Of a DNA stretch of 64,000 nucleotides, positions 19,487 to 19,632 are shown piece after piece. Every line of letters begins with the position of its first letter. Position 1 is the stretch's first letter. The notes under the pieces are model-generated. The model was not told where the DNA came from, did no database searches, and was given only the letters and a program-made list of their open reading frames with translations. Both the position numbers and the translations under genes were made by a program. Source of the DNA: Cryptobacterium curtum DSM 15641 (GTDB taxonomy: Bacteria > Actinomycetota > Coriobacteriia > Coriobacteriales > Eggerthellaceae); the NCBI RefSeq assembly GCF_000023845.1, contig NC_013170.1, forward strand, positions 186,001 to 250,000, written 5' to 3'.

Positions 19487-19579
19487 ATGATTCTTGAGCA
19501 AAGCGACATAATTTCGCAGGCAGGCAGGCAGGCAGGCAGGCAGGCAGGCAGCTACAGCTATCTAGTCAGAATCGAATAG
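19487..19579 (+). CDS. Possible leader peptide spanning the CAGG repeat (30 residues)
   Basis: An ATG at 19487 opens a short frame: MILEQSDIIS, then a Gln-Ala-Gly-Arg repeat encoded by the tetranucleotide tract, ending SYSYLVRIE with TAG at 19577-19579. The stop is 9 bases before the base of the hairpin at 19589. The ribosome-binding site is weak (AAGTGG). The tract unit is not a multiple of three, so a one-unit loss would move the stop to 19563-19565 and a one-unit gain would move it to 19588-19590, inside the hairpin. Whether it is translated is unknown. Confidence 0.3.
   Translation: MILEQSDIISQAGRQAGRQAGSYSYLVRIE
19517..19551 (+). repeat. CAGG tetranucleotide tandem repeat (8 full units plus CAG)
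   Basis: Eight perfect CAGG units and a partial ninth, about 180 bases before the adhesin start. Perfect tetranucleotide tracts of this length slip during replication and are the classic basis of phase variation in surface genes. Confidence 0.95.
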
Positions 19580-19588
19580 TATATTCGT

Positions 19589-19632
19589 AAAGGCAGTTCG
19601 TATCGATTGTTCGATACGTGCTGCCTTTTTAT
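19589..19632 (+). terminator. Terminator or attenuator hairpin upstream of the adhesin gene
   Basis: AAAGGCAG plus CGTATCGA pair with TCGATACG plus CTGCCTTT, giving about 17 pairs with one mismatch and one wobble, a 4-base loop, then TTTTTAT. It lies between the CAGG tract and the adhesin CDS and more than 330 bases past the terminator of the previous gene. It therefore probably acts on a leader transcript rather than ending the upstream gene. Confidence 0.75.

Follow-up and report, generated by a model that had tools for sequence, protein, structure and literature searches.

Repeat number and a premature terminator upstream of an adhesin gene in Cryptobacterium curtum: a candidate phase-variable transcription attenuator

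Results

Organization of the adhesin locus

Within the window, which is the whole 64,000-nucleotide stretch of the Cryptobacterium curtum DSM 15641 genome analyzed here, a gene on the plus strand (19689..21692) encodes a surface adhesin with Adhesin_P1_N and GbpC domains (Pfam PF18652, E = 9e-26; PF08363, E = 3.5e-50) and a C-terminal SPKTG sorting signal. Judged by sequence, the predicted product belongs with the antigen I/II adhesins of the cell wall; its more likely start codon is ATG 19731, directly before the signal peptide, with ATG 19689 as a longer alternative. The upstream gene (18187-19185), which encodes an MpPF26/DUF5105-like protein, is followed on the plus strand by a terminator at about 19208..19252, with a hairpin (-21.7 kcal/mol, then TTTT) that begins about 23 bases past the stop codon. 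Because the upstream gene ends in its own terminator, we assign a further hairpin with T run, at 19589-19630, to the leader of the adhesin gene.

Also on the plus strand, the leader region contains a (GCAG)9 tract of perfect units at 19516..19551; runs of five GCAG units occurred in none of 100 shuffles of the window. A leader frame of 30 codons (MILEQSDIISQAGRQAGRQAGSYSYLVRIE) runs from ATG 19487 through the tract to a TAG stop codon at 19577-19579 (19487..19579); of the three frames, no other has an ATG, GTG, or TTG open into the tract. Its putative ribosome-binding site, at -2.4 kcal/mol, was the weakest of the set of loci compared, whose other members ranged from -3.3 to -10.2 kcal/mol. 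A spacer of 37 bases (19552..19588) separates the tract from an intrinsic terminator at 19589..19630, identified from sequence and predicted fold, with a hairpin at 19589-19628 and a T run at 19626-19630. The hairpin has a predicted fold energy of -25.9 kcal/mol, or -26.4 kcal/mol with its flanks, compared with a mean of -8.9 kcal/mol for shuffles (z = -8.0), and TTTTT comes next. This terminator stays intact in the predicted fold of 19516-19640. An Rfam search returned nothing at the family cut-off, with sub-threshold chance matches only.

The spacer holds stop codons for all three phases, and the resulting gap between leader stop and hairpin is 23 bases for 8 or 11 units, 9 bases for 9 units, and -2 bases for 7 or 10 units. 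By comparison with shuffled sequence, the probability that the window locus would offer both ON and OFF phases by chance is 0.62. The first-pass annotation had described the same 30-codon frame, ending nine bases before the hairpin, and had predicted that the first base of the stop codon would move to 19563 with one unit lost and to 19588 with one unit gained (original downstream coordinates); both readings proved exact. Its descriptions of a strong terminator-like hairpin and of a weak ribosome-binding site also agree with the energies given above, whereas the reporter test that it proposed was bracketed around eight units and the tract has nine.

A second copy in the same genome

The source genome is a single contig of 1.62 Mb. 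On its minus strand, a second copy of the arrangement (G000:C1 1079559-1081882) has a (GCAG)11 tract, a hairpin identical to that in the window, and a leader that is nearly so, and it is followed by a paralogous GbpC/antigen I/II-type adhesin gene (L011; G000:C1 1079559-1081490). The first 150 and the last ~170 residues of the two adhesins are identical, whereas the GbpC middle is strongly divergent; gene conversion or replacement of a domain would be expected to leave such a pattern. Upstream of the tract, a plus-strand block at 19349..19515 is common to both copies with 3 mismatches in 167 bases, and the homology ends sharply at 19349. From 19349 to the end of the hairpin, with the tract left out, we counted 4 mismatches in 246 bases, and another 9 mismatches in the 58 bases past the hairpin. 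Thus, the two copies are almost unchanged in flanks and hairpin but differ in tract length, one with (GCAG)9 and the other with (GCAG)11. Two other GCAGGCAGGCAG sites in this genome have three units only and no leader.

Similar loci in other genomes

Scanned for (GCAG)5, GTDB genomes yielded at least 118 loci, most of them in GC-rich coding DNA, which were then screened for a hairpin with a T run. Among the matches listed, this screen identified loci in Gardnerella vaginalis KA00225 (L042, n = 10), and metagenome-assembled genomes of the Acidaminococcaceae (L040, n = 11) and the Clostridia (L124, n = 11). The family of the Gardnerella genome adds three genomes: G270 (n = 15), G1140 (n = 9), and G268 (n = 12, with the downstream region masked). 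A Defluviitaleaceae locus (L110, n = 12) was picked out by its upstream sequence, and its contig ends in the tract. Both L110 and L159 (from the Defluviitaleaceae metagenome-assembled genome G164) lie on contigs that end in a GCAG tract; because assemblies break at such tracts, switches of this kind are probably under-counted. One additional match, in genome G019, was rejected as a degenerate repeat beside other genes.

In IMG/VR, contig L491 carries a Gardnerella-type cassette with a (GACA)16 tract and a different secreted-type protein downstream. Relative to L042, its hairpin has a compensatory change of a C-G to a T-A pair, and leader and spacing are kept despite the GACA unit. Around 5194-5257 of this contig, both the unit (GCAG to GACA) and the downstream gene have changed, and the cassette appears modular.

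The stop-to-hairpin gaps for the three phases were 29/-2/-30 bases in L042, 28/8/-30 in both G270 and L491, 37/5/-9 in L040, and 59/45/-2 in L124. Every member with a readable hairpin has phases that stop far from it (≥23 bases) together with phases that run into it, and the genes after the switch encode secreted or surface-type proteins where this could be judged. Multiplied over five loci, the shuffle probabilities come to about 0.02; given this value, and because two of the five loci are related, we consider the statistic supportive and not decisive.

Several further loci resemble these cassettes in part. Loci L582, L583, L588, and L591 are decayed cassettes in which TTGGCA replaces TTGACA, the hairpin is degraded, and the tract has about three units. 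Phage contigs L251 and L280 have a ribosome-binding site, a TTGACA, an ATG, a (GCAGA)13 or (GCAGA)11 tract, and a hairpin of -33 to -35 kcal/mol 58-76 bases downstream; based on this order of elements, they are possible phage-borne attenuators of the same design. A scan of viral contigs for TTGAC with (GCAG)4 found no leader-type locus. The other sets scanned gave (GCAG)6 in 1 of 138 genomes from the window organism's own family, TTGA with (GCAG)4 in 1 of 391 Clostridia genomes, and (GCAGA)4 in 3 of 399 Bacilli genomes, with flanks that lack the TTGACA register.

Promoter-like elements before the tracts

A promoter scan upstream of leader ATG 19487 found only weak candidates. The candidate distal promoter P1 (19418..19446, plus strand; TTGCAA, 17 bp, CAAGAT with TG) occurs in both copies and does not score above shuffled sequence. 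The tract-proximal promoter-like element P2 (19484..19512, plus strand; TTGATG-17-CATAAT) scores 7.8 against a 95% level of 8.8 for shuffled sequence, and so is no better than chance in the window; its register, however, is exactly that of TTGACA elements before tracts elsewhere. When 170 bases upstream of the tract were scanned in eight loci, the best site lay directly before the tract in seven, with its -10 element ending 3-7 bases before the tract. In five loci (L042, G270, L040, L110, and L188), a second good site begins 90-110 bases upstream.

Tracts in this register begin about 32 bases past TTGACA, and an nAnnnT hexamer lies between the two, at a spacing of 16-18 bases from TTGACA. We scanned IMG/VR for tracts without constraint, counted by flank clusters, and compared six control windows of equal size. 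TTGACA was located 27-38 bases before the tract in 24 of 58 GACA clusters, 7 of 17 GCAGA clusters, and 6 of 28 GCAA clusters, compared with 0-1 in each control window; the register was found before none of the CAAT, GGAA, or viral GCAG tracts, and opposite-strand tracts showed it in 0-3 cases. Among 25 TTGACA clusters, 22 have nAnnnT at a spacing of 16-18, compared with 5-6 at control spacings (p about 4e-5 for three of the four controls and 0.003 for the fourth; this test takes in L154, from a TTGAC-constrained scan). In the Gardnerella relatives, copies with TTGGCA have about three units and the four copies with TTGACA have 9-16 units, an association that shared ancestry could also produce.

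Phage contigs, including L229, L232, L252, and L428-L536, have GACA or GCAGA tracts in the same register after TTGACA, and some carry tracts of two different units. Many phage tracts apparently lie inside coding frames (ARKYLT..., KLIDKL...), as read from their translations. The codon frame of TTGACA differs between these phage genes (YLT vs IDK), which argues that a DNA signal and not a peptide is kept at this site. Our search of the open-access literature found no description of a promoter-like sequence at fixed spacing before a repeat.

Discussion

The closest known systems are the pil1 and pil3 pilus loci of Streptococcus gallolyticus. In pil1, the leader frame contains 22 GCAGA repeats and is followed by a terminator of -18.7 kcal/mol (Danne 2014, PMC3894217). 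Repeat numbers of 22+3n give low or mixed expression and other numbers give high expression; loss of the leader start or of the hairpin, as well as out-of-frame changes in the repeat, act as the model predicts; the mapped transcription start precedes the leader; and pil3 is laid out in the same way (PMC3894217). In Escherichia coli, termination fell from about 90% to under 10% when a stop codon was placed 5 instead of 28 bases ahead of a terminator (PMC4824070).

By published description, the window locus shares with pil1/pil3 a short-unit repeat in a leader frame, followed by a premature intrinsic terminator and then by adhesin or pilus genes, and in both the three phases differ in whether the stop falls within the hairpin, near it, or far from it. 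It differs in its tetranucleotide unit (GCAG vs the pentanucleotide GCAGA), in unit number (9 or 11 vs 13 or 22), in its unrelated Actinomycetota host, in its two paralogous copies with single adhesin genes, and in its weak ribosome-binding site. As in translation-coupled attenuators of the pyrBI/trp type, the position of the leader ribosome would decide whether the terminator forms; that position would be set here by heritable repeat number, whereas in those systems it is set by a metabolite. A slipped-strand change of a tetranucleotide tract is likewise the basis of the frameshift contingency loci of Haemophilus and Neisseria; however, the tract of those loci lies in the coding gene, whereas the window tract lies in a leader and would act via termination, with the adhesin frame untouched. 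For Gardnerella, Atopobium, or GCAG units, our search of the open-access literature found no such switch.

On this comparison, we consider it somewhat likely that the window locus attenuates transcription in a phase-variable manner, as pil1 does. The tract before the adhesin gene probably switches expression on and off reversibly: the number of units would determine how near the leader ribosome comes to a transcription stop signal. Slipped-strand mispairing would change the number of GCAG units. With 8 or 11 units, the leader ribosome would stop 23 bases short of the terminator and the gene would be mostly OFF; with 9 units, as in the window copy, the gap of 9 bases would give an intermediate to ON state; and with 7 or 10 units, the ribosome would stop on the first bases of the hairpin and the gene would be ON. 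A ribosome near the hairpin would block its folding, such that RNA polymerase would read into the adhesin gene. Judged by the E. coli measurements (PMC4824070), the window copy should be leaky to ON and the 11-unit paralogue mostly OFF. We infer that transcription begins upstream of 19487, that the leader is translated, and that switching occurs in Cryptobacterium curtum. The first-pass proposal that repeat number sets the leader ribosome's stop relative to the terminator is thus partly supported: it fits the window, the 11-unit paralogue, and independent loci, and it is the mechanism proven for pil1/pil3. Leader attenuation is well supported for the class as a whole. For the window it is the best single reading, held with moderate confidence; the weak ribosome-binding site, the tract-proximal element, and the want of a clear promoter upstream all lower that confidence.

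That element gives rise to a doubtful though substantial alternative, in which the working promoter is TTGATG-17-CATAAT. Were P2 active in the window, transcription would begin within the tract and no leader would be produced; repeat number would then affect the 5' end in length or structure and nothing else, or the promoter would keep the tract unstable. The site directly before the tract scores highest in nearly all of the loci scanned, and the TTGACA register before GACA, GCAGA, and GCAA tracts (with none before CAAT), the spacing of nAnnnT, and the match between TTGACA and long tracts, TTGGCA and short ones, in the Gardnerella relatives all point to a role for such elements. In the window, however, the element falls below the 95% level of shuffled sequence, and several members have a second promoter upstream together with a ribosome-binding site before the leader ATG. 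In pil1, mapping places the transcription start ahead of the leader, whose ATG is required (PMC3894217), and a start inside the tract leaves the conserved terminator without a role. The weak ribosome-binding site and promoters would also suit an ordinary intergenic microsatellite, whose repeat number regulates nothing, beside an unrelated constitutive terminator or small RNA, and the frame arithmetic alone is not improbable. We regard this as unlikely, given that the order of tract, terminator, and surface gene recurs in unrelated genomes, that the hairpin is identical in the paralogues and covaries between L042 and L491, and that the upstream gene has its own terminator.

Pairing of the RNA itself appears highly improbable as the basis of the switch. 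The first-pass annotation had pointed out that the tract unit matches GGCAG in the 5' arm of the hairpin, and tract RNA could in principle pair with CUGCC of the 3' arm to form an antiterminator that would be stronger with more repeats. The GGCAG is present in both places, but we do not consider the match meaningful, because the L491 hairpin contains GGCAG beside a GACA tract, whereas L040 combines a GCAG tract with an unrelated hairpin that has none. The proposed pairing is contradicted by these two loci, as well as by its extent (5-6 pairs only, against a hairpin of -26 kcal/mol with an adjacent 5' arm) and by the predicted fold in which the terminator stays intact. A G-quadruplex formed by GGCA repeats was also considered and dropped; the GACA and GCAGA members lack GG runs.

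Leader attenuation by stop position relative to a terminator is already known from pil1/pil3; the fixed promoter-to-tract spacing is new and unexplained. The tract-proximal promoter may serve to give additional untranslated transcripts, to pause polymerase, or to destabilize the repeat. More tentatively, in a proposal that could well fail, we suggest that GCAG, GCAGA, GACA, and GCAA contingency tracts of gut-type bacteria and phages sit at the start of a sigma70-type promoter (TTGACA, 16-18 bp, nAnnnT) that is part of the device, raising instability through transcription that begins within the tract or giving untranslated transcripts. If this is true, promoter-coupled repeat switches would form a widespread class, so far undescribed, with the window attenuator as one form and the phage coding-frame tracts as another. 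The fixed spacing across phages and bacteria raises the question of why tracts lie where transcription would start. If the attenuator reading holds for Cryptobacterium curtum, a mechanism proven in one streptococcus, at two pilus loci, would also act on an adhesin gene of a distant lineage, where a single cell has two switch copies set independently of each other, and the layout would extend to Gardnerella, Acidaminococcaceae, and Clostridia.
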